From a virus: a stretch of 41,126 nucleotides of DNA. Below are positions 473-16,727 of this stretch, in pieces. Position 1 is the stretch's first letter. Each line of letters opens with the position of its first letter. The position numbers and the translations under genes were made by a program. The notes under the pieces are model-generated. The model had not been told where the DNA came from and searched no databases. It worked only from the letters and a program-made list of their open reading frames with translations. The DNA lies in IMG/VR virus record IMGVR_UViG_3300046001_010210, positions 1 to 41,126 of that record; one strand, given 5' to 3'.

Positions 473-501
473 TTGCCTTTTGTTATATTTTACGCTATAA
501 T
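473..501 (+). promoter_or_regulatory. sigma70-like promoter for the lysis/curli block
   Basis: TTGCCT (473-478), a 17-base spacer and a perfect TATAAT (496-501). The predicted start of transcription, near 508, is only a few bases before the ATG at 512, so the first mRNA would be almost leaderless. Confidence 0.6.
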
Positions 502-511
502 AGTTTTGAAG

Positions 512-1000
512 ATGAGAGTATTAGCTTTGGTATTTTTACTTGCCGGCTGCTCAATATCTACTCCTAAACCTACTACAGTCTTATCGCTATCTGGCGCAAA
601 TGCTTTAGTAGGATTACATGAAAAGAGTGATAGGGAATTCCTAAAATCCCTTATGGGGATTGACCCGGTAAGATATGAGTGGTGCGCGGCATTTGTAAAC
701 GCAATTTTAAGTAGAAATGGAATACCGGGCTCTGAATCAGTGTCTGATAACCCTCTTTTGGCTCGAAGCTTTTTAGCCTGGGGAACTCCGGTAACGTCTC
801 CTAAACGTGGAGATATAGTAATATTTCCAAGAGGCGACGAGAGTTGGCAAGGTCACGTAGGATTTTATAAAGGTAAAGTCTATCGAGACGGAGTTCTTTA
901 CTATATTATTCTTGGTGGAAATCAAAGTAATATAATATCCTATGAATTTTATCCCGCTAAATCTGCTCTAGGCATTAGACGCTGGATTGTGAAGGAATAG
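512..1000 (+). CDS. lipoprotein CHAP/NlpC-like peptidoglycan hydrolase (TIGR02594-like)
   Basis: The protein has 162 residues from ATG 512. It begins with a lipoprotein signal peptide ending LAGC (Cys13). The rest resembles the TIGR02594 family of cysteine amidase/endopeptidase-like phage proteins: a WCAAF motif gives the probable nucleophile Cys58, GHVGFY gives His115, and GGNQ gives Asn137. A TTG at 473 would lengthen the frame but would start inside the promoter, so 512 is preferred. It opens a cluster of small membrane proteins, which suggests a lysis role as a wall hydrolase anchored to a membrane. The lipobox is unusual for an endolysin. The function is inferred from motifs. Confidence 0.75.
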   Translation: MRVLALVFLLAGCSISTPKPTTVLSLSGANALVGLHEKSDREFLKSLMGIDPVRYEWCAAFVNAILSRNGIPGSESVSDNPLLARSFLAWGTPVTSPKRGDIVIFPRGDESWQGHVGFYKGKVYRDGVLYYIILGGNQSNIISYEFYPAKSALGIRRWIVKE

Positions 1001-1001
1001 T

Positions 1002-1280
1002 ATGGATTTTTTAGCATTAGTAGCTGACGTAGGTTTTCCAATAGCTTCTGCACTTGCAGGAGGTTTTTTCGTATTTTTAACTCTAAAGTTTATTCTTGCG
1101 GGAGTGCTAGAGTCTATCAAAACTCAAAGAGGCTTTGTACTCGCACTCAACAATAGAGTTAAGACTATGAATAACGAGCTTGTACGAATTGATGTGCTAA
1201 TTTGTAATAGTTTTAATATCAGACCTGATTTAGACCGGATAGCGCGTGCTGACGGACAACAGGATGCTAGAAAGGATTAA
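1002..1280 (+). CDS. one-segment membrane protein, holin/spanin-like context
   Basis: The 92-residue protein has one hydrophobic segment (about residues 5-35) followed by a helical, charged tail. It shares the GFP-start of the membrane segment and the tail layout (a conserved run of L, N, D and R near an IR/VR pair) with the protein at 1535-1837, so the two look like paralogues flanking a two-segment protein. Good ribosome site (AAGGA). A role in lysis or in membrane anchoring is inferred from position only. Confidence 0.7.
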   Translation: MDFLALVADVGFPIASALAGGFFVFLTLKFILAGVLESIKTQRGFVLALNNRVKTMNNELVRIDVLICNSFNIRPDLDRIARADGQQDARKD

Positions 1281-1283: not shown

Positions 1284-1535
1284 ATGACGGAACAAGATAA
1301 AGATTTTAAAGATGTACACGTAGACCTAGTAACTAAAGGGGATAAAGTCGCTACACACTTTACATACTGGTTTGCTTGGTTTTGGGGTGTTGTAAGCGCA
1401 GTTTACTTTTTTGCAGTTACGTTTCTACCTATTCCCGCTGCCGGAGAAAACTTTGCTAATATCATCTTAGGATTTCTACTAGGCACTGCGGTCTCCACAA
1501 TTATCAACTTCTTCTTTGGGAGTAGTGAGCAATAA
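1284..1535 (+). CDS. putative holin, two membrane segments
   Basis: The 83-residue protein has a charged N-terminus and two strongly hydrophobic segments (about residues 28-48 and 56-78), the second being glycine- and phenylalanine-rich (NIILGFLLGTAVSTI). Size, topology and position beside a peptidoglycan hydrolase fit small phage holins. No signature residue proves it. The stop overlaps the next start by one base. Confidence 0.65.
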   Translation: MTEQDKDFKDVHVDLVTKGDKVATHFTYWFAWFWGVVSAVYFFAVTFLPIPAAGENFANIILGFLLGTAVSTIINFFFGSSEQ

Positions 1536-1837
1536 TGGAACTAGACATTGCAGCGGCGATTAGCCAATATGGATTTCCAATCATTGCTGCTTTTGGGTTG
1601 GGGTATTTTATCTTCTATATCTGGACCTGGGTAACACAAGAAGTAGACCCTGTCGTAAACGAGTCTCACATGACTCTTATTGGACTTATTGATCGTATTC
1701 GTATGTTAGATAACGATTTAATACGCTTAAATACTAAATTAAATATGATTTTACAAGAGCAAGAGCGACGACAAAAGGAGAGAGAGTATGAAACTCCTAA
1801 TACTACTCCCGTTGATACTAATAGCTCCAACAACTAA
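1535..1837 (+). CDS. one-segment membrane protein, paralogue of the 1002 gene
   Basis: The 100-residue protein has an N-terminal hydrophobic segment (about 10-33), then an amphipathic helix and a charged, disordered tail. The first 75 residues parallel the protein at 1002-1280. Its last 50 bases overlap csgF, so the lysis-like genes and the curli genes are physically coupled. Confidence 0.7.
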   Translation: MELDIAAAISQYGFPIIAAFGLGYFIFYIWTWVTQEVDPVVNESHMTLIGLIDRIRMLDNDLIRLNTKLNMILQEQERRQKEREYETPNTTPVDTNSSNN

Positions 1838-2246
1838 TGCGGGTGAACTCGCTTTTCAATTTAGTTCGCCTGCGTTTAGCGGTAATGGATACAGCTCACA
1901 CGTATTAACAATAGAGCAACTAGAACAACAACGCAAAGAAAAAATTATCTCAGACGCTACTGCGGCACTAGAAAAAGAAGAACGAGAACTAAAAAACTCT
2001 AATGTGTATAAGTTTCGTAATAATTTAGAATCTCGAATCTATGCCCAGCTGAGCCGTCAAATAGCTGATAATCTTTTTGGGGAAGGTGCAACGGTAGTAG
2101 ACGGAGAATGGTACACTACCGAAACTCCTTTTGGAGATGTAATAAATTGGAAGCGAGAAGATAATAGAATCTACGTAACTATTGAAGATTCTAATGGAGA
2201 GCTAGTAGCAGAGTTTGATGCTCCAATTGGGGAGTTTGCATTCTGA
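1788..2246 (+). CDS. csgF: CsgF-like curli assembly factor
   Basis: The 152-residue protein has a signal peptide (1-18) and a mature N-terminus GELAFQFSSPAFSGNGY that matches the CsgF hallmark (E. coli: GTMTFQFRNPNFGGNP). In E. coli this segment plugs into the CsgG channel, forms its second constriction and couples nucleation to secretion. The C-terminal part also follows CsgF (a helical middle, then beta strands ending in G-E-F-A-F). A strong AGGAGAGAG ribosome site fixes the start although it overlaps the previous gene. csgG follows with a one-base overlap. Confidence 0.88.
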   Translation: MKLLILLPLILIAPTTNAGELAFQFSSPAFSGNGYSSHVLTIEQLEQQRKEKIISDATAALEKEERELKNSNVYKFRNNLESRIYAQLSRQIADNLFGEGATVVDGEWYTTETPFGDVINWKREDNRIYVTIEDSNGELVAEFDAPIGEFAF

Positions 2247-3022
2247 TGAAAAAAATAGTAATTAGCCTATTACTGGCTTTTAACCTAGCAAGTTGTTCTA
2301 CTATTATTAATAGGCTAGAACCCACAGAACCTGAAATAGTAAAACCGGCAGCTACAGAATTTGACAGTTTGCCGGCCCCTAAAAATGGTCAGATGGTAGC
2401 TGCTGTTTATGGCTTTGAAGATAAAACTGGACAGCGTAAGCCGAGTGACAGACTCGCTAATATTTCTACGGCAGTAACACAAGGTGCTGAAGTCTGGGTA
2501 ATTAAAGCCCTACAAGAAGTTGGCGGAGGAAAGTGGTTTAAGGTTGTTGAGCGTGTAGGGTTAGAAAATCTTTCACGAGAGCGACAAATTATTCGTCAAA
2601 CTAGGGATAGCGTTGAAGACCCTACTCCCGTAGCTCCTATGATGTTTGCAGGAGTACTTGTAGAAGGGGCTGTTATTGGTTATGACTCAAACACTCTAAC
2701 AGGAGGTGCAGGAGCACGCTATTTAGGCGTTGGGCCTAGCACTCAATATAGAGAAGACGTTGTTACTGTTACTATGAGAGCAGTATCTGTGCAGACAGGT
2801 GAAGTTCTAGTGAGTGTAGCAGTATCTAAAACAATTGTAAGTACTAGCACGAATATGGGAGTATTTAAGTTCATAGAGGCAGGAACTGAGAATGTCGAAC
2901 TTGAAATCGGCAACTCTCAAAACGAGCCGGTAAACTATGCCGTGCGAGTAGCAATCGAACAGGCTGTTGTTGAAATGATAAAAGAAGGTGCAGTTAAAGG
3001 ATATTGGTCTTTTAAAAGGTAG
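2246..3022 (+). CDS. csgG: CsgG outer-membrane curli secretion pore
   Basis: The 258-residue protein is a lipoprotein (lipobox LASC, Cys17), close to the 277 residues of E. coli CsgG. Conserved CsgG blocks are visible: VAAVYGFEDKTGQRKPSD, EVWVIKALQE, a W-F-VVERVGL-NLSRERQIIR run, a GAGARYLGVG-like loop and TVTMRAVSVQTGEVL. CsgG forms a nonameric outer-membrane channel that exports unfolded curlin subunits. A pore able to open the outer membrane directly next to lysis genes is notable. The start overlaps the csgF stop (TGATG). Confidence 0.93.
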   Translation: MKKIVISLLLAFNLASCSTIINRLEPTEPEIVKPAATEFDSLPAPKNGQMVAAVYGFEDKTGQRKPSDRLANISTAVTQGAEVWVIKALQEVGGGKWFKVVERVGLENLSRERQIIRQTRDSVEDPTPVAPMMFAGVLVEGAVIGYDSNTLTGGAGARYLGVGPSTQYREDVVTVTMRAVSVQTGEVLVSVAVSKTIVSTSTNMGVFKFIEAGTENVELEIGNSQNEPVNYAVRVAIEQAVVEMIKEGAVKGYWSFKR

Positions 3023-3029
3023 AGCATAA

Positions 3030-3638
3030 ATGAAAAAGTTAATATTACTTCTTAGTTTACTAAGTAGTCCAGTATTTGCGGCTGAAGTATATATAGATCA
3101 GGCAGGTGGGGCTGCAACTGTAGACATACTGCAAGAAAACGGTATGAATAGAGTTAATGCCGAATCTGACCCTGCACTTCTAAGCGGTGATGATATTATT
3201 TTAAATATTCTTCAGAGCGGAGATTTAAATACTGCCGATCTGTATTTTGACCAGAACGCTAATAGTACAGATTTTTCGTACTACGCCACAGGCAGTTTTA
3301 ATGAGATACTAGCAAGTATTTTTGGAGGAGTTAACAACTATTTTCTAACTACAATTACGGGAGATACTAATATAGTGACTGCCTGTAAGAACCTCTATGC
3401 AACTACTTGTAACGGAGTAATTGTAAATAACACCCAAAACACCCTAACACTAGTAGGTAATAACAACGAAATTAACTACGCTCTAGACAGCGGAGATGCA
3501 ATTAACAATATAAACATTGGATCTACGGTGCCCAGCGATTTTAACGTTATTAACTTAACTCAAACAGGTGCAGGTGAGCATATGGCTACTATTACAATAG
3601 ATGGGAATAACAATTTAGTTGACCTAGTTCAGAATTGA
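3030..3638 (+). CDS. secreted curlin-repeat-like protein 1
   Basis: The 202-residue protein has a signal peptide (about 1-17). The mature chain is rich in N, G, Q, T and short beta strands, with curlin-like repeat ends (I-x-Q-x-G at about Q24, Q35, Q62, Q178, Q201) separated by degenerate stretches. The C-terminus (a GNNN step, then V-D-L-V-Q-N) is typical of CsgA/CsgB repeats. It is the likely substrate of the CsgG/CsgF pore just upstream. It has two cysteines (119 and 127), unlike E. coli curlin. The repeats are irregular, so it may be a nucleator (CsgB-like) rather than the bulk fibre. Confidence 0.75.
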   Translation: MKKLILLLSLLSSPVFAAEVYIDQAGGAATVDILQENGMNRVNAESDPALLSGDDIILNILQSGDLNTADLYFDQNANSTDFSYYATGSFNEILASIFGGVNNYFLTTITGDTNIVTACKNLYATTCNGVIVNNTQNTLTLVGNNNEINYALDSGDAINNINIGSTVPSDFNVINLTQTGAGEHMATITIDGNNNLVDLVQN

Positions 3639-3639
3639 A

Positions 3640-4734
3640 ATGTGGAAATCTGTACTAGTGCTCATTTTATTACCTACTATAGCACTAGGAGAAGTTGGTG
3701 CAGTAACTGAGTTTTCAGGTAATCCAGCACAAGCAAAAAGATCTGAAGAAAGCTTCATAGTTGAAATGGGTTTTACGGTAGAGATGCTAGACGAACTTAT
3801 TACCGCTAATACTAGAATGGGATTAACTTTTGAAGACGGGTCTAGGGCAGAGATTACTGAGCAGAGTGAGCTAATAATAGACGACTTTGTATATGACCCT
3901 AATAGCGGTGCGGGAAAAATGAGCATGAAAGTAGCTCTTGGCACGGTTCAAATGGCTTCCGGTCGTATTGCTAGAACTTCTCGAGAAAATGTAAGTATTA
4001 AAACTCCTACTGCAAGTATTACGGTACGAGGTACTAGTTTTTCTATGACTGTGGATGAACTTGGTAGAAGTCTTATTATCAACCTACCTATTGACTGCCC
4101 GGACCCTGAACTAGAAGAAGATGAGTGTCCTAGTGGGGTAATTGAAGTCAGTACTGACGCCGGGTCGGTAACACTAAATAAACCTTTCTTAGGTACTATG
4201 GTTAGTAGTTCTAGCCTATTACCTGCAGACCCGAGACGATTACTTTTAGACGGTCGTAAGATTGACAACGACCTTATTATTGTGCCGCCTTCAGAGTTTC
4301 CTAGAGGCTTCTCTGACGAGGATGAGGAAGAGGAAACATCTACAGCACTTGATATAGACCTTCTAGAGTACCAAGAACTGAGTCAAGACTTTTTAGACCA
4401 GGATTTTCTAAAAACTAGTGCATTAGATATTAACAGACTAAAAAACGACTATCTAGATAACTTGCTAGATATAACAGCCCAAAGTTTAGACAACGAATTA
4501 GATGAAGAAGGGCCTGACGTATTACCCAATATTAAACGTTTTCCTTGGATTCAGTGGGCTTATAATGAAGAATTTATTTTACTAGATTCTGATAGACCAC
4601 CACATATTGCAGTTTTAACTGTAGATAGAGACACACAGGGAACATTTGCTCTAACACAAGATGAGTACTCAGCTACTGTACAAATTAATAGTGGGGGGAC
4701 TGATGTGAGCATAAAGGTAGTTCAAAAACAATGA
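3640..4734 (+). CDS. secreted FecR-domain protein
   Basis: The 364-residue protein has a signal peptide (about 1-17). Residues 18-150 form a FecR-like beta domain, with the typical KTPTASITVRGT motif at 121-132 preceded by a short G-x-V-x-x-x-S-G-R run. The C-terminal half is acidic, with a D/E-rich run near 227-235, and ends in a beta-rich region. In bacteria FecR domains often occur beside CHASE2 sensors and act in the periplasm as signal or anchoring modules. Here it sits between two curlin-like genes, overlapping the second by four bases. It could be an envelope anchor for the fibre or the ligand of the CHASE2 cyclase downstream; that part is inference. Confidence 0.8.
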   Translation: MWKSVLVLILLPTIALGEVGAVTEFSGNPAQAKRSEESFIVEMGFTVEMLDELITANTRMGLTFEDGSRAEITEQSELIIDDFVYDPNSGAGKMSMKVALGTVQMASGRIARTSRENVSIKTPTASITVRGTSFSMTVDELGRSLIINLPIDCPDPELEEDECPSGVIEVSTDAGSVTLNKPFLGTMVSSSSLLPADPRRLLLDGRKIDNDLIIVPPSEFPRGFSDEDEEEETSTALDIDLLEYQELSQDFLDQDFLKTSALDINRLKNDYLDNLLDITAQSLDNELDEEGPDVLPNIKRFPWIQWAYNEEFILLDSDRPPHIAVLTVDRDTQGTFALTQDEYSATVQINSGGTDVSIKVVQKQ

Positions 4735-5846
4735 AAGGAATTTTAAAAACATTAGCAATTATGATTACAATGGCTTGGGCTACGGTAGCGCAGGCCGGTA
4801 TATTAGATGGTAAGTTTGGTACAGGTCAAATGTTTGACGTCCAGTACTACTGGAGCGGAAACGATTTAGTTGCCAGTAGCTTCACGCGAGTGTTCTCTAG
4901 CACAGGCCAGTTAACTGTGCAGGACTATACAGATATGGATGCGAATAATAGATACTTTGCATTTTTTAACTCAACTACACATCCAGGTGAGTACGGATTG
5001 GCTGTATATAATAGCGATGGTACAGTGAATAGAACACTTCATACTAGAGGAACTATTACTGCGATAGGTAATGATGCTATCTTTTATCTAGGCAGCGGAT
5101 TTTATGGTACCGTGATACCGACAACTCAAGGATACGCTTTTGGAGACAGTGCTACGTTTACAGGGATGAACCAGTCGCCCACAGCCAGTGAGATAAGCAA
5201 CTATAATGCAGGTACCACACCTCTTGCACCTGGTCAAAGCGGTGGTGGTGGGCCTACCCCCGTCTACATAAGTTCAATTACTACAGCTCAAACTACTACA
5301 AAAACTGCTGCTCTTGCAACTACTACAGGCAATAACGCTAACATTACTATACTAGGAAACGATAACGAAGTGGATATTAGACAGTTAACAAATGGTAATT
5401 ATTTAGATCTCAGTATAGACGGAGACGAGAATATTGTAGACATAGAACAAACTAGCACTACTCTAGCAAGACACTTCGCTGAGATAGATTTAATAGGAGA
5501 TAATAACGAGTACACTATGCTACAAAGCGGAACTGCTAAAACAGCTTTTATCTCTTCTGACGGCAATGAGAATATACTTAGCATTATCCAAAAAGACGGT
5601 GGAGAACACTACCTTAGCCTAAACAATATTGGAAATGAAGCTGAGATTACAATTTTACAAGAGGGTGCAGGAAATCATAGTGCAACTCTAGAGCTTGAGA
5701 ATGGCGGCGGAAACTGGGTATTTAACCTAACACAAAGTGGAGCTACTAACTACTTATATAGCTTACCGCATAACCTTACCGACAATACAGTAGTTACGGG
5801 AATCTGTTATACTGGCACTTGTAGTATGACGATTGTACAACAATGA
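4731..5846 (+). CDS. secreted curlin-repeat protein 2 with an N-terminal domain
   Basis: The 371-residue protein has a signal peptide (1-22). An N-terminal domain of unknown fold (about 23-165) is followed by a G/P/T-rich linker (165-200). Then come six clear curlin-type repeats, each ending I/L-x-Q, with the glutamines at about 218, 240, 265, 287, 310 and 335. The 22-25 residue period matches CsgA/CsgB repeats, and each repeat carries a G-N/D-x-N turn. A Cys pair near the end could form a disulfide. This looks like the main amyloid subunit, perhaps displaying the N-terminal domain. The stop overlaps the next start. Confidence 0.82.
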   Translation: MKGILKTLAIMITMAWATVAQAGILDGKFGTGQMFDVQYYWSGNDLVASSFTRVFSSTGQLTVQDYTDMDANNRYFAFFNSTTHPGEYGLAVYNSDGTVNRTLHTRGTITAIGNDAIFYLGSGFYGTVIPTTQGYAFGDSATFTGMNQSPTASEISNYNAGTTPLAPGQSGGGGPTPVYISSITTAQTTTKTAALATTTGNNANITILGNDNEVDIRQLTNGNYLDLSIDGDENIVDIEQTSTTLARHFAEIDLIGDNNEYTMLQSGTAKTAFISSDGNENILSIIQKDGGEHYLSLNNIGNEAEITILQEGAGNHSATLELENGGGNWVFNLTQSGATNYLYSLPHNLTDNTVVTGICYTGTCSMTIVQQ

Positions 5847-6181
5847 ATTTTTTACTTAGTTTAGCTACTACTATGCATTTAGGTTTTGAGGGTGAGTACA
5901 ATAGTATTCACCCTCATACTCGTTTTGAGAGTAATGATTATGCTATTGGTGCTTACTTAAACAGTGAAAATAATATTAGCCCTTACATCTCGTACAGCCT
6001 AAAAATGCAATCTTATAGTTTAGAATTAGGTTTAGTAGGAGGATATAACATTCCTGCAGTTCCCTTACTACGTTTAGGCAAATCTCTCTCTAAAGACGTA
6101 GATATTTTTATTACGCCAGGATTTGAGAATAACACAGAAAACCCCAAAATAGTTTTGGGACTTGAATTTACATTGAGGTAA
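5843..6181 (+). CDS. small beta-rich phage protein, barrel-like pattern
   Basis: The 112-residue protein has alternating hydrophobic strands and many Y, S, N, G residues (for example around YAIGAYLNSE and PYISYS), ending in an aromatic strand GLEFTLR. It resembles small conserved phage proteins with a repeated Y-x-x-G-x-Y-x-N-S pattern whose function is unknown. There is no convincing signal peptide, though the first 14 residues are hydrophobic. It sits tightly between the curlin-like gene and the cyclase, so it probably belongs to the same operon. Confidence 0.7.
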   Translation: MNFLLSLATTMHLGFEGEYNSIHPHTRFESNDYAIGAYLNSENNISPYISYSLKMQSYSLELGLVGGYNIPAVPLLRLGKSLSKDVDIFITPGFENNTENPKIVLGLEFTLR

Positions 6182-6183
6182 AG

Positions 6184-8217
6184 ATGATACAAAAAATACT
6201 AACCAGCGCCATTTGGAGTATCGTTACTCTAGCATTAATGGTCGGAATAGCCTATCTGAATCCGTCATTTATTGAAAGCGTAAAACTCCGATATTTTGAC
6301 ACTCTAATTACGTCAACTCCCAAAATAGAAAATAATATCTATACCGTAAACATAGATGAAGCAGCTATTGAACAGTACGGTCAGTGGCCTTGGTCAAGAG
6401 ATATATATGCCAATATTATAGAAGAACTTTACGCTAGAGAAGCTGGTTTAGTAGTTTGGAATATATTAATGTCCGAATACGACAGAAGCGGTAAAGATTC
6501 TTACTTAGGGGATACTTTAGCGCAGTATCCGGTAATACTAAATATACTAGGTGCAGAAGAATCTAAAAATTCTGCAATAAATCCCGGGGCTGCAATAATT
6601 AATTCTGAGTACCAAGATTTAATACTCTCCTATCCAGGAATTATTGCAAATATTCCTGAGTTAGAAAACCTAGCTTCGGGTAGTGGTATTGTTAATACGC
6701 TACCAGAAATTGACGGGGTCACACGTCGTGTGCCGATGGTAATCTCCAGTGGGGGCACTCTGTATCCTAACCTTACTCTAGAAACACTTCGAGTTCTTGC
6801 TGGAGACCCAAGTTTTCAGATTAAGCTTTCTCCCCTTGGAGTTGACCGACTGCGTATTCCTCAGTTTGGAGAAATACCAACTGACGAACTCGGACGCGTA
6901 TGGGTCGATTGGAGTCAAAGTAGTAAAAGTGTTTCTCTCACTAATCTTCCTGATAGTTTTGGAGGTGCGATAGTTTATATAGCGCCCACTGCAGCAGGAT
7001 TAAATAATCCTATTGCAACTGCTGCTGGAGGTGTTTGGCCTCATGAATTGCAGGCTGCACTTCTAGGTACAGTTTTTAATCAGAGTAATATTGAGCGTCC
7101 CGCTTGGGCATCAGGCGCAGAACTAATTTCATTAGTACTCGGGGGTATTCTCTTAATCTTCTCAGCACGCTGGACCTATTTAGGATTAGGAGTTTTTGTA
7201 CTACTGCTTGCTAGCACTGTAGGCGGTAGCTGGTATGTTTTTGTGGAATATAAGTGGCTACTCGATGGTGTTACGCTTACGGCATCGTTCATTCTAATCG
7301 GTCTTGTACGATATGCTGTGAAGTTTATTTCAGAGTACCTACAAAAGTTAAAAATTAAAAAGCAGTTTGGCGGATATGTCTCTCCGCTTGTCATTGAACA
7401 GTTACAAAAAAACCCCGAGCTTGTCAGCCGGGGCATTAAACGCGATGTTTCTATTGTAATGACAGACTTACGAGGTTTTACACCACTAGGAGAGTCATAT
7501 GGGGATGACGTCCACGGTCTCACACAGATTATGAATGACTATATGACTGCTATTTCACAACCTGTACTTGACGATGGAGGCACTATTATCAAGTATATTG
7601 GCGATGCAACTCTACACATTCATGGAGCGCCTCTCACTGATGAGCATCATGCAAAGCACGCCGTTGCAACTACGTTGCGAATGATTAAAGCGGTCGAAGA
7701 GTTTAACACTGAGCTAGATGCTATCGGTAAACCACGAGTAGCAATGGGAGCAGGTATCAATACTGGCCCTGCTGTTATTGGCAATATCGGTTCTAAGACT
7801 CGATTTGGGTATGATATACTAGGAGATAGTGTTTCTACCGCGGCTCGATTAGAGGGTCAGAGCAAGCCCTACGGAGTCAAGATTGTTATTGGTGAGAGCA
7901 CCGCAGAGCTAGTACGAGATGACTATATCTTATTAGAACTCGATAAAATTGCGGTAAAAGGCAAGACAATTGGACTACGCATGTATACCGTAGTTGCTGA
8001 AGGTAGTCCTGAAGCTGTTCAAAAGCACGAAGAGATGTTACAGCTCTATCGCGCACGTGAGTTTAGCAAAGCTAGTGTCGCGTGTGTGCTGCTCAAAAAT
8101 GAGTTTGGCGGTGAAATGCGTGACTACTATAAAATGTGGATGTCTCGCTGTGAAGAAATGCGAAACTCTAGTCTTCCCGAAGACTGGGATGGAATTTATC
8201 GAGCCACTTCTAAATAG
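6184..8217 (+). CDS. CHASE2 sensor - class III adenylate cyclase
   Basis: The 677-residue protein has an N-terminal membrane helix (about 8-25), an extracytoplasmic CHASE2 domain (about 35-300), a hydrophobic block of probably three helices (about 305-382) and a class III cyclase domain (about 415-610). Metal-binding aspartates are present (Asp428 in TDLRGFT, Asp474 in KYIGDAT). Lys470 and Asp544 fit ATP rather than GTP specificity, and Arg555 is kept. The transition-state Asn is replaced by Ser551 (GDSVSTAAR instead of the usual VN), so activity may be altered. It is last in the curli-type operon, has a GAGGTAAAG ribosome site, and its stop abuts the oppositely oriented tRNA-Arg. Confidence 0.9.
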   Translation: MIQKILTSAIWSIVTLALMVGIAYLNPSFIESVKLRYFDTLITSTPKIENNIYTVNIDEAAIEQYGQWPWSRDIYANIIEELYAREAGLVVWNILMSEYDRSGKDSYLGDTLAQYPVILNILGAEESKNSAINPGAAIINSEYQDLILSYPGIIANIPELENLASGSGIVNTLPEIDGVTRRVPMVISSGGTLYPNLTLETLRVLAGDPSFQIKLSPLGVDRLRIPQFGEIPTDELGRVWVDWSQSSKSVSLTNLPDSFGGAIVYIAPTAAGLNNPIATAAGGVWPHELQAALLGTVFNQSNIERPAWASGAELISLVLGGILLIFSARWTYLGLGVFVLLLASTVGGSWYVFVEYKWLLDGVTLTASFILIGLVRYAVKFISEYLQKLKIKKQFGGYVSPLVIEQLQKNPELVSRGIKRDVSIVMTDLRGFTPLGESYGDDVHGLTQIMNDYMTAISQPVLDDGGTIIKYIGDATLHIHGAPLTDEHHAKHAVATTLRMIKAVEEFNTELDAIGKPRVAMGAGINTGPAVIGNIGSKTRFGYDILGDSVSTAARLEGQSKPYGVKIVIGESTAELVRDDYILLELDKIAVKGKTIGLRMYTVVAEGSPEAVQKHEEMLQLYRAREFSKASVACVLLKNEFGGEMRDYYKMWMSRCEEMRNSSLPEDWDGIYRATSK

Positions 8218-8294
8218 TGGAGCCTCTGGCAGGATTCGAACCCACAACCCTCGCGTTCGAAGCGCGATGCTCTATCCAGTTGAGCTACAGAGGC
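8218..8294 (-). tRNA. tRNA-Arg (TCG)
   Basis: Acceptor GCCTCTG/CAGAGGC, anticodon stem TCGCG/CGCGA with loop CTTCGAA, T-loop TTCGAAT, CCA encoded. The 3' end touches the stop of the converging cyclase gene. Confidence 0.93.
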
Positions 8295-8298
8295 AATT

Positions 8299-8376
8299 TG
8301 GTAGGGCATACGGGTTTCGAACCCGTTATCTCCGCCTTGAAAGGGCGGCGACCATCGCCAAGTAGTCCTATGCCCC
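8299..8376 (-). tRNA. tRNA-Glu (TTC)
   Basis: Anticodon stem CCGCC/GGCGG with loop CTTTCAA, T-stem ACGGG/CCCGT, acceptor closing with a G-U pair, discriminator A, CCA encoded. Confidence 0.92.
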
Positions 8377-8381
8377 AAAAT

Positions 8382-8458
8382 TGGTTGTCCCTGATAGATT
8401 CGAACTATCGACCCCAGTCTTATCAGGACTGTGCTCTAACCAACTGAGCTAAGGGACA
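8382..8458 (-). tRNA. tRNA-Ile (GAT)
   Basis: Acceptor TGTCCCT/AGGGACA, anticodon stem CAGTC/GACTG with loop CTGATAA, discriminator A, CCA encoded. Confidence 0.93.
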
Positions 8459-8463
8459 ATATG

Positions 8464-8539
8464 TGGTGCCTGAGGTTTGAATCGAACGAACATCTCCTGC
8501 TCTTCAGGCAGGCGCTAAGACCACATCAGCTACTCAGGC
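8464..8539 (-). tRNA. tRNA-Phe (GAA)
   Basis: Acceptor GCCTGAG/CTCAGGC, anticodon stem CCTGC/GCAGG with loop CTGAAGA, CCA encoded. Confidence 0.92.
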
Positions 8540-8544
8540 GTTAT

Positions 8545-8620
8545 TGGTGAACCGGGTGGGAGTCGAACCCACGTTGACACGGATTAAAAGTCCATCGCTA
8601 AACCGCTCAGCTACCGGTCC
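8545..8620 (-). tRNA. tRNA-Lys (TTT)
   Basis: Acceptor GGACCGG/CCGGTTC, anticodon loop CTTTTAA, T-arm GTGGG/CCCAC, CCA encoded. Its first base is also the last base of the upstream gene's stop codon. Confidence 0.92.
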
Positions 8621-8841
8621 TAAAAAGGAATTTCTTCGTCTTCGGGCTGATCACCATACAACTCATCCCACTCTTCGTCGGTCATACCCGTCAAGATAAA
8701 CTCTCTAGCACTGGCCGAGAGCTGGGGAAAGGCATATTGAATTAGCACCCCGCTTTTCCAAGCATCAATCTGTTCCTGGGTGATAGGCAAATCACGTCCA
8801 CGAGTTTCACCAGTAAACGGAGAGGTACGAACAACAATCAT
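8620..8841 (-). CDS. conserved-looking hypothetical protein
   Basis: The 73-residue acidic protein has an N-terminal R-T-S-P-F-T-G motif and a C-terminal WDELYGDQ acidic tail. It looks like small conserved proteins annotated in other large phages, function unknown. It is translationally coupled to the upstream gene by an ATGA overlap and ends one base into tRNA-Lys. Confidence 0.75.
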   Translation of the reverse strand: MIVVRTSPFTGETRGRDLPITQEQIDAWKSGVLIQYAFPQLSASAREFILTGMTDEEWDELYGDQPEDEEIPF

Positions 8842-9092
8842 TTCTGATATCCTACATTTTTGAGCATACGAGAGGTGGAAGTGTTAAGAAGGATTTCTGC
8901 ACGAGGATAGAAGCACTCTTTTAAAGTAGACGATGACTGGATGAGTTTGCGTTTATACTGTCGCTTAAACCGAGCGTTCCAATCTAGCACAGTTTGCTTA
9001 TCTTCATGTTTATAAACGAGCCACCACCACTCTCGACGAGTGTTTGGAATTTCATCACAGTCAGTTCCGTGCGTTTCGTATAAGTAGTACAT
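8838..9092 (-). CDS. hypothetical protein
   Basis: The 84-residue basic protein has a WWWLVYKH motif and many aromatic residues. AGGT ribosome site before ATG 9092; four-base overlap with the next gene. No family recognised. Confidence 0.7.
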   Translation of the reverse strand: MYYLYETHGTDCDEIPNTRREWWWLVYKHEDKQTVLDWNARFKRQYKRKLIQSSSTLKECFYPRAEILLNTSTSRMLKNVGYQK

Positions 9093-9107
9093 CTATACCT
9101 CATAGTT

Positions 9108-9191
9108 TGGTGGGAGTGAAGGGAATCGAACCCAACATGAGTTTCCTCGACGGAGTTACAGTCCGCTGCCTCACCTTGAGGCGTCACTCCC
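9108..9191 (-). tRNA. tRNA-Tyr (GTA), long variable arm
   Basis: Acceptor GGGAGTG/CACTCCC, anticodon loop CTGTAAC, extended variable arm as expected for bacterial tRNA-Tyr, CCA encoded. Confidence 0.93.
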
Positions 9192-9199
9192 AATAAGCT

Positions 9200-9228
9200 A
9201 ATATCGCATATTACTAAGTATTGAGCAA
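9200..9228 (-). promoter_or_regulatory. sigma70-like promoter upstream of tRNA-Tyr
   Basis: TTGCTC (9223-9228), 17 bases, GATATT (9200-9205). It would drive tRNA-Tyr, two small genes and the five tRNAs down to 8218. Confidence 0.45.
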
Positions 9229-9237
9229 GGCTGATGT

Positions 9238-9313
9238 TGGTAGTGCTAGTAGGACTCGAACCTACGACTTACAGAATATGAGTCTGCTGTTCTACCAGCT
9301 GAACTATAGCACT
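9238..9313 (-). tRNA. tRNA with CAT anticodon (Met elongator or Ile2)
   Basis: Acceptor AGTGCTA/TAGCACT with an A-U first pair, anticodon stem GCAGA/TCTGT with loop CTCATAT, CCA encoded. It lacks the three G-C pairs of an initiator anticodon stem. Two CAT tRNAs occur in the window, so one may be the lysidine-modified Ile2 species. Confidence 0.88.
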
Positions 9314-9723
9314 CCGAGAACCTCGTATCCGTCTAACTGAGATTTGTAGTGTTGATGTGGACCAAGATAGTAATAATCAAATCCACGAGACTTATAAAGC
9401 GCACACTCGTGATAGTTAGCAATCCACCCTAACTGAAGGCTAGGATTGTGATAGGTCCAGGCGAATTGATACCCCCGCACACTGTTACTGTCTAGAAGCT
9501 GTACTAGAGTGAAAGCTTCTAGCACTCCATCATCGTAGTATCCAACTGTCTCCGCGTTATCAATATCAAAGTCAAAAAGTGGTTCCACTGAAAGAAACTG
9601 TTTATGCGCACAGTATCTAGCATAGATGTCTCGTAACTGTGACTTATTTGGGTTAGTGATGATTCGAGCCTGTGAGTAGAGAGGATAGTTTGTGCGGCTC
9701 AGCACTACTCTACCGTACTTCAT
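9304..9723 (-). CDS. GNAT-like protein, resembling the C-terminal part of aminoacyl-tRNA-protein transferases
   Basis: This is a 139-residue protein. The segment from GYYDDGVLEAF to the SRGFDYYYLGP motif looks like the second half of arginyl/leucyl-tRNA-protein transferase (ATE) or FemAB-type GNAT folds, where a Y-Y-L-G run follows a conserved helix. It is much shorter than ATE (about 240), so its substrate is unknown. Four-base overlap with the upstream gene; its TAG stop is formed by bases 8-10 of the tRNA downstream. Confidence 0.7.
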   Translation of the reverse strand: MKYGRVVLSRTNYPLYSQARIITNPNKSQLRDIYARYCAHKQFLSVEPLFDFDIDNAETVGYYDDGVLEAFTLVQLLDSNSVRGYQFAWTYHNPSLQLGWIANYHECALYKSRGFDYYYLGPHQHYKSQLDGYEVLGVL

Positions 9724-10388
9724 CGTACGAAGAACCCAAGTCTAACTTCGTTAGAATACGGATTAACGTCAGACATATCAGTAGAATTTGGAATAAATCG
9801 ATAACCTTTAGTGTATAGATTTATTAGTTGTTGTCCATCAGATTTCCAGACTGGAATATACTCATTGTATTGTGAGTAGATGGACCCATCAGGATTGCCC
9901 GATGCACGTAGATGAATCTCTATTGGCTTATCACCTTTAAACTCAATATTTATATATCGTACGTCTGAGAGTACGTTTAATATAGCAGGAACCGGTGGAA
10001 CATACTCACTACGAGTCCAGCGAGTAAACTTAGTTAAATTCTCGGTAGAATTCATTCCCTGCCAACAAGAAAGAGGTTTCCAAAGTGGCCGAACACCATG
10101 ATAAAACTCATACGTGGCGCTATAGTGAGGCGCGTCAAAGTACTCACACCAAAAATATCCCGGAGGGACGGAACTACGATCTCCCGCTTCAATATATTGC
10201 AGCCGAGCCCCTAGACCCATACCAGCTAAGTTATAAATCGGACGAACAATATAGTTATCACTGCGAGGAGGAGGATAACCTCCTGGACCACATAGGTAGT
10301 TAAGACAATTAGCTAGATAGAGTTTATTAAACCAAAGTCTGTGTTGAGGATATCTATCCCAAAGCTCCCACTCGTCTAAGTCTTCCAA
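9720..10388 (-). CDS. hypothetical phage protein with a possible ATP-grasp-like motif
   Basis: The 222-residue protein is Y/W-rich. A Y-I-V-R-P-I-Y-N-L-A-G-M-G-L-G-A run (residues about 46-61) resembles a nucleotide-binding ATP-grasp signature but is not decisive. It is coupled to the GNAT-like gene by an ATGA overlap, so the pair may act together, for example in a ligation or transfer reaction. That is speculative. Confidence 0.65.
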   Translation of the reverse strand: MEDLDEWELWDRYPQHRLWFNKLYLANCLNYLCGPGGYPPPRSDNYIVRPIYNLAGMGLGARLQYIEAGDRSSVPPGYFWCEYFDAPHYSATYEFYHGVRPLWKPLSCWQGMNSTENLTKFTRWTRSEYVPPVPAILNVLSDVRYINIEFKGDKPIEIHLRASGNPDGSIYSQYNEYIPVWKSDGQQLINLYTKGYRFIPNSTDMSDVNPYSNEVRLGFFVR

Positions 10389-10402
10389 ACATACTCTCCT
10401 TT

Positions 10403-10486
10403 TGGAGGTCGGTGCGTGAATCGAACACGCTACTTTTCAGTGCTATGGAGTTGCAGTCCATCCCCTTACCATCCGGGCCACCGACC
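10403..10486 (-). tRNA. tRNA-Cys (GCA)
   Basis: Acceptor GGTCGGT/ACCGACC, anticodon stem ATGGA/TCCAT with loop CTGCAAC, discriminator U73 (a tRNA-Cys identity element), CCA encoded. The variable region is longer than usual. Confidence 0.92.
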
Positions 10487-10523
10487 ATGAAAAAACCCCT
10501 CCAGTGATACTGAGAGGGGTTTA
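10487..10523 (-). terminator. intrinsic terminator
   Basis: On the minus strand AAACCCCTC pairs with GAGGGGTTT and is followed by a T-run, ending just before tRNA-Cys. Confidence 0.75.
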
Positions 10524-10558
10524 GCGTTTGCATAAACAATACTAAACTGCTCCCAGCC

Positions 10559-10606
10559 CTAATAGCTGTGATACATCTCAATAAAAGTTTTGCAAATAGT
10601 ACGCAT
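10559..10606 (-). CDS. possible 15-residue peptide or amber-interrupted gene
   Basis: A short ORF starts at ATG 10606 after an AGAGAG run and stops at a TAG. The same frame stays open beyond the TAG with protein-like sequence (GWEQFSIVY) until it meets the terminator. It could be a real micropeptide, a decayed gene or chance. Confidence 0.25.
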   Translation of the reverse strand: MRTICKTFIEMYHSY

Positions 10607-10624
10607 TGTTTTCTCTCTATACTA

Positions 10625-10699
10625 TGGTGCGCAGGGAGGGACTCGAACCCCCGACAGCTTGCGTGTAAAGCAAGAGTTCTACCGCTGAACTACCCGCGC
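10625..10699 (-). tRNA. tRNA-Val (TAC)
   Basis: Acceptor GCGCGGG/CCTGCGC, anticodon stem CTTGC/GCAAG with loop TTTACAC, CCA encoded. Confidence 0.92.
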
Positions 10700-10705
10700 A
10701 AAAAA

Positions 10706-10782
10706 TGGCGACCTATGCCGGGCTCGAACCGGCGATTTCCTGCGTGACAGGCAGGCGTCTTAAACCACTCGACTAATAGGCC
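10706..10782 (-). tRNA. tRNA-Asp (GTC)
   Basis: Acceptor GGCCTAT/ATAGGTC, anticodon stem CCTGC/GCAGG with loop CTGTCAC, discriminator G73, CCA encoded. Confidence 0.93.
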
Positions 10783-10914
10783 TTACTTTAACATTCCAGC
10801 TGCAGCCCCTATGAATACGGCTGCAGCTCCTGATACTAGTACTGGGTCAGACTGTACTAACTTACGTTCTTCCGCGCAACCGGCTAAAGCCAAAAGCACT
10901 AATAGCGCTCTCAT
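10783..10914 (-). CDS. small lipoprotein
   Basis: The 43-residue protein is a probable lipoprotein: the signal sequence ends LAGC (Cys13), followed by a charged spacer and a small-residue-rich hydrophobic segment (about 26-42). ATGA overlap with the upstream glycine-zipper gene; its TAA lies directly against tRNA-Asp. It could be an outer-spanin-like or envelope protein; that is inferred only. Confidence 0.72.
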   Translation of the reverse strand: MRALLVLLALAGCAEERKLVQSDPVLVSGAAAVFIGAAAGMLK

Positions 10915-11351
10915 TTTACAAAATCAACGTTATAGCGTTTACCGTCAATCCTAAAAGAGGCAGTTGAATGGCTATACTGCTGTACGCGTTCGTCTCTATA
11001 TCGAACAACTTCAGAACATTGACGCTCGGTACGATAACCTACAATTTCATTACGCGTGCTGCGAGAGGCAGCATCCGCACCTGCAATCGCGCCGAGAACG
11101 GTCATTGCGTCTTTGCCTTTACCCTCTCCAAACTGATTACCTAAAAGACCGCCAATAATAGCGCCAGCTACAGCATCACCTGTTGAAGCAGGTTTTTGAG
11201 CATAGACGGGAACCTCTACATTCTGACACTCTGTTGCACTAACAGGAATAGAAACTGTTTTTGTGGTATAGTGGTCTGTAATTGTAGCAGTAATTGATTG
11301 ACTATCAGCAATAGTTGGAAAGAACATTGCAAAGACAATTACATATTTCAC
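10911..11351 (-). CDS. secreted glycine-zipper (17 kDa antigen-like) protein
   Basis: This 146-residue protein begins with a signal peptide (about 1-18). A central glycine-zipper segment (DAVAGAIIGGLLGNQFG, about 58-74, continuing to an AIAGADAAS run) is typical of the Rick_17kDa / 2TM glycine-zipper families that insert in bacterial envelopes. Two cysteines flank the zipper. With the following small lipoprotein it forms an envelope-directed gene pair. Confidence 0.8.
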   Translation of the reverse strand: MKYVIVFAMFFPTIADSQSITATITDHYTTKTVSIPVSATECQNVEVPVYAQKPASTGDAVAGAIIGGLLGNQFGEGKGKDAMTVLGAIAGADAASRSTRNEIVGYRTERQCSEVVRYRDERVQQYSHSTASFRIDGKRYNVDFVK

Positions 11352-11370
11352 GGCATTTCTCCAGTATGGG

Positions 11371-11461
11371 TGGCGGAACGTATTGGATTCGAACCAATGG
11401 TACCCTATTCAGGTACGACGGTTTAGCAAACCGCTGCCTTAAACCTCTCGGCCAACGCTCC
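11371..11461 (-). tRNA. tRNA-Ser (GCT), long variable arm
   Basis: Acceptor GGAGCGT/ACGTTCC, anticodon loop TTGCTAA, long variable arm, discriminator G73, CCA encoded. It starts directly after the upstream gene's stop. Confidence 0.93.
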
Positions 11462-12022
11462 TTATTTCTTAGCTAGAATACTCAAACCCCAATTATGTGT
11501 AAAGTGTTCTTTTAAATACCAGTCAGGATTTGTTTCTAAGAATTCTAGAACAGCTGGACCTAATCCCTTGTATCTAACTCCGTTAGCATCGTATTTTTGG
11601 CCGTGCATATCTTCTCCAAACTCTTGAAAAAATTCAGTGTCGTGAAGAACGATATACTTACGAACCTTAGAACCATGAAGTGCAAGCTCTTGTTTTAGCT
11701 GGTCATAGTAGTGTGCTGTGTCAATAAAGAGTAGGTCAGTTTCTTCAATGGAGACATCTAACACATCAGCTTTAATAAAAGTTAGCTCTACATTATGAGC
11801 CTTGGCATACTCTTGTGCTTGTGTCAACCTATCTACAGGAGGGTCGGCAATATCATAGAGAACTAATTTTTGTGGGTAGGATTCTAGCCAAGCCCACACC
11901 GAAACTACGTTTCGCACTCCCATCTCTGTAATATGCTTACAGTGTTTAGCATAGTCATGCATAACTTGCAAGTGTTCGTTAATATCACCGGGAGTTGAGA
12001 TTAAAAGTTTAAGTTCTGACAT
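11462..12022 (-). CDS. SAM-dependent methyltransferase-like protein (Methyltransf_24 / CmcI type)
   Basis: This is a 186-residue protein with a Rossmann-like pattern. ITEMGVRNVVSVWAWLE takes the place of motif I, LVLYDIADP gives the acidic end of strand 2, and LLFIDTAHYYDQLKQEL with VLHDTEFF matches the DxxH...HD features of the methyltransferase-24/CmcI group, which often modify sugars. The substrate is unknown. The stop abuts tRNA-Ser. Confidence 0.72.
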   Translation of the reverse strand: MSELKLLISTPGDINEHLQVMHDYAKHCKHITEMGVRNVVSVWAWLESYPQKLVLYDIADPPVDRLTQAQEYAKAHNVELTFIKADVLDVSIEETDLLFIDTAHYYDQLKQELALHGSKVRKYIVLHDTEFFQEFGEDMHGQKYDANGVRYKGLGPAVLEFLETNPDWYLKEHFTHNWGLSILAKK

Positions 12023-12039
12023 ATGGGTTCCTATCTTTA

Positions 12040-12131
12040 TGGCGGGCAGAGAGGGATTCGAACCCCCGGAACGCTCTCACGTTCGTCGGTTTTCAAGACC
12101 GATGTAATAAACCAGACTCTACCATCTACCC
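12040..12131 (-). tRNA. tRNA-Ser (TGA), long variable arm
   Basis: Acceptor GGGTAGA/TCTGCCC, anticodon stem TCGGT/ACCGA with loop CTTGAAA, long variable arm, discriminator G73, CCA encoded. The upstream gene's stop codon uses acceptor-stem bases 4-6. Confidence 0.92.
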
Positions 12132-12419
12132 TTTATTTTGCATTTTAGCAAGTTGTTTTTGAAGTCTGCCAATGGTAGCTAGCAACTTCAATTTTTCCTG
12201 TTGTAGCACAAAGTTTTTTACTTGTAAATTAATAGTGCTAGCCAGGCATACAATATCTTTATTCTCGTGTGACGCTTTTAGAAACCCTTTATATACCGCT
12301 ACAGCTAAAGTTTTATAAACCTCGTCTTCGTCAACCTCTATCATACCAAAATCTGTGGGTTCTATATCAGCAGCTCTAGCTAGATTAATCAGTTGTTCAA
12401 GAGTTAGTTTTGTAGTCAC
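12126..12419 (-). CDS. hypothetical protein with C-terminal coiled coil
   Basis: The 97-residue protein starts at GTG 12419, supported by an AAGGAG site. It is helical, with a leucine/glutamine-rich amphipathic C-terminus (about 65-95). No family recognised. It ends six bases inside tRNA-Ser. Confidence 0.65.
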   Translation of the reverse strand: MTTKLTLEQLINLARAADIEPTDFGMIEVDEDEVYKTLAVAVYKGFLKASHENKDIVCLASTINLQVKNFVLQQEKLKLLATIGRLQKQLAKMQNKG

Positions 12420-12435
12420 ACAAATTCTCCTTTTT

Positions 12436-12512
12436 TGGCTCCCCCGGCTGGACTCGAACCAGCGACACTCTGATTAACAGTCAGATGCTACTACCAACTG
12501 AGCTACAGGGGA
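12436..12512 (-). tRNA. tRNA-Asn (GTT)
   Basis: Acceptor TCCCCTG/CGGGGGA, anticodon stem TCTGA/TCAGA with loop CTGTTAA, discriminator G73, CCA encoded. Confidence 0.93.
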
Positions 12513-12685
12513 ACTGTATTTTTACGATAATCTTCATATGTGAGGTAGATAAACATGCCAATAAATAACCCTAACATATTAAACTGCAGCAGTCCAGCAG
12601 AAATTAAATCTGCACAGAGGGCGCACGCTAAATAGTCGTACCATTTTAGAGGTTGTCCATGCGGAGAAATATGTGGTTTTTCCAT
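12503..12685 (-). CDS. small membrane protein
   Basis: The 60-residue protein has a hydrophobic stretch (about 18-50) that could form one or two membrane segments, with a charged C-terminus. It overlaps the end of the wall hydrolase gene by 40 bases, and its TAG stop is bases 8-10 of tRNA-Asn. A holin-like partner of the hydrolase is possible. Confidence 0.6.
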   Translation of the reverse strand: MEKPHISPHGQPLKWYDYLACALCADLISAGLLQFNMLGLFIGMFIYLTYEDYRKNTVPL

Positions 12686-13107
12686 GTTCCTACCTCTTCG
12701 TATTGCCTAGCCCAACGAGGCTTATGAGACACGAGTTTTGGATTATAGTAATGTGTAGCTCCCATATTGTAGAGAGGAAGACTACCCTCAAGTAATCCCC
12801 ACGCTATCATACGGGCCATAAGCCACGAGTACTCGTCTCTCGGCGTATGGTCATCTATTAAATGCGTCCAGGAAAACTGATAGGGTTGATATACAACACC
12901 ACAAACAGAATTTGGAAACTCGTCTAGACGCACTCGATTTAATGTTACTTCCCCTACTAGTTGCATACCTTGAAAGCCTTGATTGCGAGCTTCGTGATAC
13001 ATATTTAGAGCAAGTGCGCGTACTTGGCTGTCAAAGTTACAGGCACCGCCTTTGGCCCCTGTCGCACCTGCAATTAGTAGTAGGGCTACTAATACAGTCA
13101 CTATCAT
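12646..13107 (-). CDS. SleB/CwlJ-type cell-wall hydrolase (Hydrolase_2)
   Basis: This 153-residue protein starts with a signal peptide or anchor (about 1-18). The body matches the Hydrolase_2 family: ALNMYHEARNQ with the catalytic Glu, then GEVTLNRV, a VVYQPYQFSW block and a C-terminal ATHYYNP...PRWARQY...VGTWKNHIFL run. Family members cleave peptidoglycan glycan strands. It is a second wall hydrolase in the window, besides the CHAP-like one at 512. Confidence 0.87.
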   Translation of the reverse strand: MIVTVLVALLLIAGATGAKGGACNFDSQVRALALNMYHEARNQGFQGMQLVGEVTLNRVRLDEFPNSVCGVVYQPYQFSWTHLIDDHTPRDEYSWLMARMIAWGLLEGSLPLYNMGATHYYNPKLVSHKPRWARQYEEVGTWKNHIFLRMDNL

Positions 13108-13119
13108 TCATTTTCCTTT

Positions 13120-13203
13120 TGGTGCGGGTAGAGGGACTTGAACCCCCACGCTAAAAGCGTCAGAACCTAAATCTGATGCGTCTACCTGTTTCGCCATACC
13201 CGC
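13120..13203 (-). tRNA. tRNA-Leu (TAG), long variable arm
   Basis: Acceptor GCGGGTA/TACCCGC, anticodon stem TCAGA/TCTGA with loop TTTAGGT, long variable arm, discriminator A73, CCA encoded. Confidence 0.93.
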
Positions 13204-13209
13204 GAAATG

Positions 13210-14820: not shown

Positions 14821-14831
14821 GCTTTATCCTT

Positions 14832-14907
14832 TGGCTGGGAATCAGGGATTCGAACCCCAAACCTGCGGTACCAAAAACCGTTGCTCTGCCAATTGAGCTA
14901 ATTCCCA
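14832..14907 (-). tRNA. tRNA-Gln (TTG)
   Basis: Acceptor TGGGAAT/ATTCCCA, anticodon loop TTTTGGT closed by CGGT/ACCG, discriminator G73, CCA encoded. Similar to E. coli tRNA-Gln1. Confidence 0.9.
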
Positions 14908-14908
14908 G

Positions 14909-14982
14909 TGGTGCCGCTAGAGAGAATCGAACTCCCGTCGGCGCATTACTAATGCGCTGCTAAACCACTCAGCTATAGCGGC
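14909..14982 (-). tRNA. tRNA-Thr (AGT), unusual A34
   Basis: Acceptor GCCGCTA/TAGCGGC, anticodon stem GCGCA/TGCGC with loop TTAGTAA, discriminator A73, CCA encoded. The anticodon AGT starts with A, which is rare in bacterial tRNAs apart from Arg ACG. Confidence 0.88.
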
Positions 14983-14987
14983 AATCT

Positions 14988-15062: not shown

Positions 15063-15075
15063 TTAATTCTTTTCA

Positions 15076-15104: not shown

Positions 15105-15112
15105 GAAAAAAA

Positions 15113-15643: not shown

Positions 15644-15650
15644 GATAATT

Positions 15651-16726: not shown

Positions 16727-16727
16727 A

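Follow-up and report, generated by a model that had tools for sequence, protein, structure and literature searches.

Why should a bacteriophage carry the genes of curli-type export together with a FecR-domain protein and a nucleotide cyclase? The question is raised by a run of seven genes in the IMG/VR virus record IMGVR_UViG_3300046001_010210 (the whole analysed stretch, positions 1 to 41,126 of that record, is called the window below), and the literature is split over it, phage curli genes being taken either to make fibres (PMC9599517) or to encode a leftover pore, perhaps for lysis (PMC9004378). Here we describe a computational analysis of this run and of its viral and bacterial relatives. 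The module is real, its core is complete and well conserved, and its arrangement is already known. To this the analysis adds three features read from sequence: an apparent curlin-like tail on the FecR protein, predicted adhesin-type domains in the second curlins of relatives, and a change at the putative active site of the cyclase. With moderate confidence we favour a phage type VIII (curli) secretion module that displays an adhesin-bearing curlin fibre or anchor on the infected cell, with FecR probably in contact with it and the cyclase possibly as readout. Conservation of the curlins, the presence of adhesin-type domains and the curlin-like end of FecR tip the balance towards fibres or anchors, and FecR moves from a presumed iron regulator to a testable component of the fibre machinery.

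CsgF and CsgG of pelagimyophages were presented as a first report in PMC7029224, where CsgA and CsgB were said to be missing and sibling capture was proposed. For phage Melnitz a lysis role of CsgG/CsgF was put forward, with CsgF perhaps having given up its partnership with CsgG, and csgA/csgB were stated to be missing (PMC9004378); contrary to this statement, the GenBank record of Melnitz (MZ577097) has the same gene order as the window and annotates two curlin-repeat proteins. The order CsgF-CsgG-CsgA/B-FecR-(CsgA/B)-adenylate cyclase was described in marine pelagiphages, with alphaproteobacterial affinity, in 2022 (PMC9599517). The full set, which an earlier note made from the letters of the window had taken as new, was therefore already in print. 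No description of a curlin-like FecR tail or of phage curlins with adhesin domains was found in the open-licence literature, a search that left supplements, most subscription papers and bioRxiv outside.

The seven open reading frames (ORFs) all lie on the plus strand at 1788-8217, neighbours being separated or overlapping by 1-7 bases, in agreement with the unit drawn in the earlier note. They are given below with two features inside them:

1788..2246, plus strand, CsgF (PF10614, E 4.2e-14, Pfam curated cut-off passed)
2246..3022, plus strand, CsgG, outer-membrane pore, lipoprotein-like (PF03783, 9.8e-54; PDB CsgG, 3.7e-48 over residues 9-256)
3030..3638, plus strand, curlin-family subunit 1, divergent (signal-peptide-like start by eye; family evidence)
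3640..4734, plus strand, FecR-domain protein (PF04773, 2.8e-9; signal-peptide-like start by eye)
4654..4731, plus strand, curlin-like repeat of about 26 residues at the C-terminus of the FecR protein (profile-profile comparison, invariant Q362)
4731..5846, plus strand, curlin subunit 2 (Curlin_rpt PF07012, 9.2e-8, curated cut-off passed)
5843..6181, plus strand, small beta-rich protein (relatives in 12 of the 113 distinct records, counting the window)
6184..8217, plus strand, CHASE2 sensor and class III nucleotide cyclase, membrane protein (CHASE2, 8.6e-35; Guanylate_cyc, 1.4e-19; phrog_35576, 2.3e-192)
7810..7836, plus strand, cyclase active-site stretch with a D...S pair (T/S...N in bacterial relatives)

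Five of these identities rest on Pfam matches over the curated cut-offs. The small beta-rich protein gave no significant family (best PHROG E 0.079; nothing in NCBIfam, and in Pfam nothing at 0.1). Against NCBIfam, CsgF stays far under the equivalog cut-off, and CsgG matches CsgG at 3.4e-52 and HfaB at 3.2e-11, both under the curated equivalog cut-offs. Cys17 of CsgG is invariant in 23 aligned proteins. The N-terminal stretch of CsgF aligns, weakly (E 0.037), at its positions 7-51 with residues 8-53 of the solved CsgF (PDB 6l7a), and the motif F.sP.FsG.Gysshv (a capital standing for 90% conservation, a small letter for 60%) recurs across 76 sequences, some of them duplicates; this conservation speaks against CsgF having lost its partnership with CsgG. 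The CsgG tree places the window in a clade with L004, L005, L006, L041 and L007 (support 99/96), HTVC008M and Melnitz fall in another phage clade (99/94), and ten bacterial curli proteins cluster together (98/99). The phage proteins are unresolved as a single clade, and on these sequences the tree gives neither proof nor disproof of a single origin of phage CsgG.

Two curlin-repeat proteins had been claimed for the unit, and both were borne out, subunit 2 by Curlin_rpt and subunit 1 through family evidence; the published repeat X6QXGX2NX10 (PMC3521004) can accordingly be read in subunit 2 by PF07012 and in subunit 1 through its family only. Among 28 aligned members of the subunit 1 family, Q24, Q35, N40, G64, N67, N91 and Q178 are invariant and 15 match Curlin_rpt in Pfam. 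At least two strict QxGxxN motifs occur in 88 of the 103 distinct curlin-family proteins, both subunits taken together, vs 1 of 1358 other ORFs. Subunit 2 consists of an N-terminal domain without family, curlin repeats from about residue 200 and a conserved C-terminal Cys pair (G231, N259, Q265, Q287, Q310, C359 and C364 invariant in 27 aligned proteins). AlphaFold2 predicts an all-beta fold for subunit 1 (predicted local distance difference test 84), whose best structural matches by VIA-align are parallel beta-helices (top Z 15.2, SufBCD complex entry 5awg), and the repeat part of subunit 2 is modelled confidently, its N-terminal part poorly; Foldseek against PDB returned no match at E 0.001 for either curlin model. 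The 50 Foldseek matches listed for each model include the functional amyloid FapC, at insignificant E values of 2.9 and 0.89; that they lack a curli fibre entry is uninformative.

In some relatives the second curlin carries further domains. At E 0.01, 27 aligned second curlins gave Curlin_rpt in 21, PA14 in 6, F5/8 type C in 6 and GLEYA in 3. Eight scanned singly at E 0.001 had PA14 in L055 and HTVC008M, F5/8 type C in L005 and L092, and Curlin_rpt in L057, L091 and HTVC008M; the curlin part of the others rests on our in-house profile and alignment, not on Pfam. In L048 the protein between fecR and the cyclase gene ends in an autotransporter beta-domain (5.6e-12).

For conservation, scans of viral contigs provided 33 CsgG loci and the best 80 of 139 cyclase loci. 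After removal of duplicates, the 110 records from scans, Melnitz, HTVC008M and the window made 113 distinct viral records, many of them short. Relatives were called with profiles grown from the window proteins under length limits, and short fragments were dropped. L001 and L117 were left out of the family counts, and L035-L037 are duplicates of L002-L004. L117 (OR851715.1, 'Salmonella phage S.Kent 1-2-1') is an unverified 1.5 kb contig of low coverage with a csgG-like gene and may be bacterial. CsgG was found in 76 records, CsgF in 72, FecR in 74 and the cyclase in 101. All four occur together in 60 records, in 58 of which the order CsgF-CsgG-FecR-cyclase is kept on one strand; the two exceptions, L112 and L113, have the cyclase on the opposite strand. 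In 60/60 csgG and fecR have a curlin gene between them, and 39/60 have a second one between fecR and the cyclase gene. Distance matrices of CsgF, CsgG and FecR agree with each other at Mantel r 0.81-0.87 and with that of the cyclase at 0.49-0.54 (null maximum 0.14; 53 loci).

Hand-chosen viral records of 62-357 kb contained CsgG in 12 of 13, the fair count being 9 of the 10 fetched by the cyclase, because three had been fetched by CsgG itself. CsgG and the cyclase thus co-occur in viral contigs of up to 357 kb, and the module is not confined to the phages of the first description. In L057, L063, L066 and L071, 2.7-7.8 kb separate fecR from the cyclase gene, and by eye only we noticed phosphoesterase-like, glycosyltransferase-like and peroxiredoxin-like ORFs in these inserts.

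In the FecR protein the FecR domain is found by Pfam in 26/26 aligned members, and far outside this domain Q362 is invariant in 26 diverse FecR proteins. Compared profile to profile, the FecR tails match the curlin tails at a probability of 86% and E 5.4e-6, while none of 16 control profiles (seven other FecR parts; tails or inner parts of CsgF, CsgG and the cyclase; tails of the small transmembrane protein) did better than E 0.05, and none of 30 column-shuffled versions better than 0.054. A regular expression for the curlin strand matched the last 30 residues in 52 of 62 non-redundant phage FecR proteins vs 2.9 expected from shuffles, with 3/603 internal windows, 2/29 bacterial FecR ORFs and 13/1758 other viral ORFs of at least 100 amino acids as controls; this expression was written after the tails had been inspected, and the profile-profile comparison is the fairer test. 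The two terminal glutamines are spaced by 19-24 residues in 48/62 phage proteins (shuffled mean 13, maximum 24) and in 4/29 bacterial ones, some of which may have cut C-termini because 5/29 touch the locus end. The tail tests took FecR proteins of 300-420 amino acids. By this comparison of sequences, phage FecR proteins end in a curlin-like repeat.

The cyclase is recognisable as such also against PDB cyclases (best E 2.5e-28). Its metal Asp pair and substrate Lys are present, D428, K470 and D474 being invariant in 23 aligned phage cyclases; among 81 distinct phage cyclases the first metal/Lys pattern as written is missing in 5 and the second in 1. Two further positions, named base-specifying and transition-state (an Asn) in mammalian cyclases, are D+S in 61 of these 81 (window included), T+N in 11, S+N in 8 and unmatched in 1. 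Bacterial relatives (best 80 of 581) are S+N in 42, T+N in 34 and unmatched in 4, so the second position is Asn in 76/80 (4 unmatched by the pattern) vs Ser in the window and in 61/81 phage proteins. The pair is D/S in Melnitz as well and S/N in HTVC008M. The nearest bacterial cyclases among the best 80 of 581 share 33% identity over most of the length (35% in one fragment), and a quick tree with 40 of these 80 places 77 phage cyclases on one side of a branch and the 40 bacterial ones on the other (Shimodaira-Hasegawa-like approximate likelihood ratio test 100).

In bacteria the two halves of the module were met apart. Our profiles find CsgG, CsgF or curlin in 0/80 loci of the bacterial cyclases (the best 80 of 581; some of these loci are short), and no CsgG was found in six genomes reached through such loci, a search made without positive control. 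A FecR match lies near the CHASE2 cyclase in 29/80 of these loci, in 17 of the 29 within 250 bases, and in 10 of those 17 upstream on the same strand. Conversely, ten bacterial curli loci (five alphaproteobacterial, five gammaproteobacterial, drawn from searches of 385 and 369 genomes) showed neither FecR nor CHASE2 cyclase in the stretch read, up to about 10 kb on each side, and PMC9599517 likewise places FecR and adenylate cyclase outside canonical bacterial curli operons. Phages thus appear to combine curli export with the FecR-CHASE2 pairing, each of them a bacterial theme. In Bradyrhizobium/Methylobacterium loci L122, L123 and L124 a FecR-domain ORF of 1225-1517 amino acids stands 65-107 bases upstream of a CHASE2 cyclase, possibly an adhesin-cyclase pair.

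Among known systems the closest are the pelagiphage type VIII modules (PMC9599517; HTVC008M, NC_020484) and Melnitz, which share the core order CsgF-CsgG-curlin-FecR-curlin-cyclase with the window; CsgE is reported absent from the PMC9599517 modules too. The window differs from HTVC008M and Melnitz by its CsgG clade, the extra small beta protein, the upstream CHAP gene and 25 tRNAs. Alphaproteobacterial curli operons (L246-L250) have CsgF, CsgG and curlins in 5/5, as in the window, and are reported to lack csgC, csgD and csgE (PMC3521004), but differ in having no FecR or CHASE2 cyclase match in the stretch read. The Caulobacter HfaABD holdfast anchor resembles the phage module in combining a CsgG-like pore with curlin-like and adhesin-like partners, and surface HfaA (curlin-like) and HfaD (adhesin-like) need the CsgG-like HfaB (PMC6707917); unlike it, the phage module has CsgF, FecR and cyclase, and its pore scores far better as CsgG than as HfaB. 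In Sinorhizobium meliloti the CHASE2 cyclase CyaD1 lies near a FecR-domain gene (CyaD1/SMc02177/SMc02178, neighbours by locus number), with no curli gene named in the available part of PMC5498481, unlike the phage module. S. meliloti CHASE2 cyclases answer a protein signal via an outer-membrane barrel (PMC13001267).

In the module that we favour, CsgG would form the pore through the outer membrane, partnered on the outside by CsgF. Both curlin subunits, exported by Sec, would leave through this pore and assemble on the infected cell's surface; in some phages the second one brings an N-terminal adhesin-type domain that would make the fibre or short anchor sticky. Through its tail the FecR protein is probably co-assembled with the curlin subunits, capped by them or touching them. 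The inner-membrane CHASE2 cyclase probably senses the periplasmic state of the system, through FecR or directly, and its product, a cyclic nucleotide, would tune the host. Infected cells would thereby likely adhere or aggregate, or be shielded from other phages; either advantage has been proposed in print. Surface display is likely, and the surface amyloid that the earlier note expected as product is supported as an inference.

Several points weigh against this reading. Export, fibre formation, FecR contact, signalling and benefit go beyond the observed gene content, order, family membership, FecR tail and adhesin-type domains of relatives. Subunit 1 of the window has no Curlin_rpt match in Pfam, and the N-terminal part of its subunit 2 belongs to no adhesin family. 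Of the eight second curlins searched one by one at E 0.001, that of HTVC008M alone combines Curlin_rpt with an adhesin-type domain, and those of L084 and L089 have neither. On the FecR proteins Curlin_rpt was matched in 0/26 at E 1. A hidden Markov model of the curlin tail found only 9/63 FecR tails at E 1, vs 0/1601 other viral and 0/3362 bacterial cyclase-locus ORFs (area under the curve 0.90 vs other viral ORFs, 0.86 vs inner FecR pieces), and the reverse model, built on FecR tails, at E 1 picked up a single curlin plus two other ORFs, with no match in the ten bacterial curli loci. The replacement of the transition-state Asn by Ser makes cyclase activity unsure. CsgE, missing from the window as the earlier note had said, was found in 0/14 viral records, which may be fragments, by a search that detects the Escherichia coli control; its absence is softened by alphaproteobacterial-type curli, which do not require it (PMC3521004). 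Cells infected with Melnitz are reported not to clump (PMC9004378). The weakest part of the mechanism is the step from FecR to the cyclase, because SMc02177, the FecR-domain gene near CyaD1, was dispensable for signal perception (PMC5498481).

Tentatively, the FecR protein may be a curlin-tailed sensor, whose last repeat would dock exported or stalled curlins and inform the CHASE2 cyclase of how amyloid export stands. If true, the phage would bring along a second-messenger circuit gated by amyloid and, in view of the D/S pair, possibly one with altered nucleotide chemistry.

Alternatively, the fibre system may be as we propose and the cyclase a separate signalling cargo travelling next door, which we judge unlikely. 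Its lower co-inheritance, its inversion in two records and a distance to fecR of up to 4.6 kb in complete records, with other genes there in some, argue for such cargo, as do the two active-site types, which cut across the CsgG tree (L007, L011). The presence of CsgG in nearly all large cyclase-fetched viral records (12/13 if the three CsgG-fetched ones are included) and the order kept in 58/60 speak for a cyclase belonging to the module.

It is more doubtful that phages have converted the CsgG/CsgF pore to lysis or permeabilisation, as an analogue of a pinholin or secretin, with the curlins as remnants or plugs. Besides the proposal made for Melnitz and the missing clumps of its cultures, this is suggested by the start of the run in the window. 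The run begins upstream of csgF (1788) with four further ORFs, which follow one another up to csgF with overlaps or with gaps no wider than 3 bases:

473..1000, plus strand, CHAP-domain protein, possible endolysin (CHAP, 5.8e-8, Pfam; PHROG 1259 tail lysozyme, 8.6e-20)
1002..1280, plus strand, small single-transmembrane protein, phrog_18771, apparent paralogue of 1535-1837 (PHROG and profile matches)
1284..1535, plus strand, small protein with two transmembrane segments (holin-like by position and look only; no Pfam family above cut-off)
1535..1837, plus strand, small single-transmembrane protein, second copy (50-base overlap with the csgF start)

A position directly after lysis-like genes, as the earlier note described it, thus holds locally and not in general: the CHAP gene, at the upstream end of the run and outside the conserved curli core, neighbours the module in 4 of 113 distinct records only. 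A curlin with conserved repeat residues in every complete record, the two curlin-repeat proteins annotated in Melnitz and the conserved N-terminal stretch of CsgF all stand against a mere lysis device, for which an adhesin-bearing curlin and a cyclase would be unnecessary. Least probable is a pore for uptake of nutrients or cofactors, suggested in PMC7029224 and, with FecR as an iron-linked regulator, in PMC9599517, given a FecR with a signal-like N-terminus (by eye) and a conserved curlin-like tail, curlins and adhesin-type domains that uptake leaves unexplained, and neither FecI sigma factor nor FecA receptor among the run proteins in general family scans, which were not aimed at them.

The ORFs before csgF in the window encode membrane proteins of 83-100 amino acids, whereas the modules of PMC9599517 are described with one or two histidine kinases there; the small single-transmembrane proteins may be what that article calls histidine kinases. 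A kinase domain was found in 0 of 20 family members scanned, which leaves the kinase reading without support. Relatives of these proteins stand before csgF in HTVC008M and Melnitz. Often paired and with a conserved stretch ALDNRVRTMNNDLIRID, they accompany the module in L115, L116 and 30/60 complete records (up to 2.5 kb upstream of csgF), and sometimes stand on its far side on the opposite strand.

As to the record itself, a misjoined bacterial contig is very unlikely, because 18.2 kb of the window recur in two further IMG/VR records (L035 at 100% and L036 at 99.98% identity); the unit appears self-contained within a phage, and a third record, L037, matches the window at 78-89% in pieces. Of T4-type late promoters (TATAAATA) 6 are present vs 4.1 expected and 0 lie inside the operon, and counts of sigma-70 promoters and terminators were not above those of shuffled sequence. 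The run ends at 8217, where a convergent tRNA-Arg abuts at 8218 as the first of an array. The 41,126 bases hold 25 tRNA genes, together for all 20 amino acids, one at 56-131 and 24 on the minus strand within 8218-18814. Other genes of the window include a NAD-dependent DNA ligase at 20681-22384 on the minus strand (PHROG 3869, 1.1e-98) and endonuclease VII-like (17486-18112), UDP-glucose dehydrogenase-like (25164-25922) and methyltransferase-like (32606-33310) ones.

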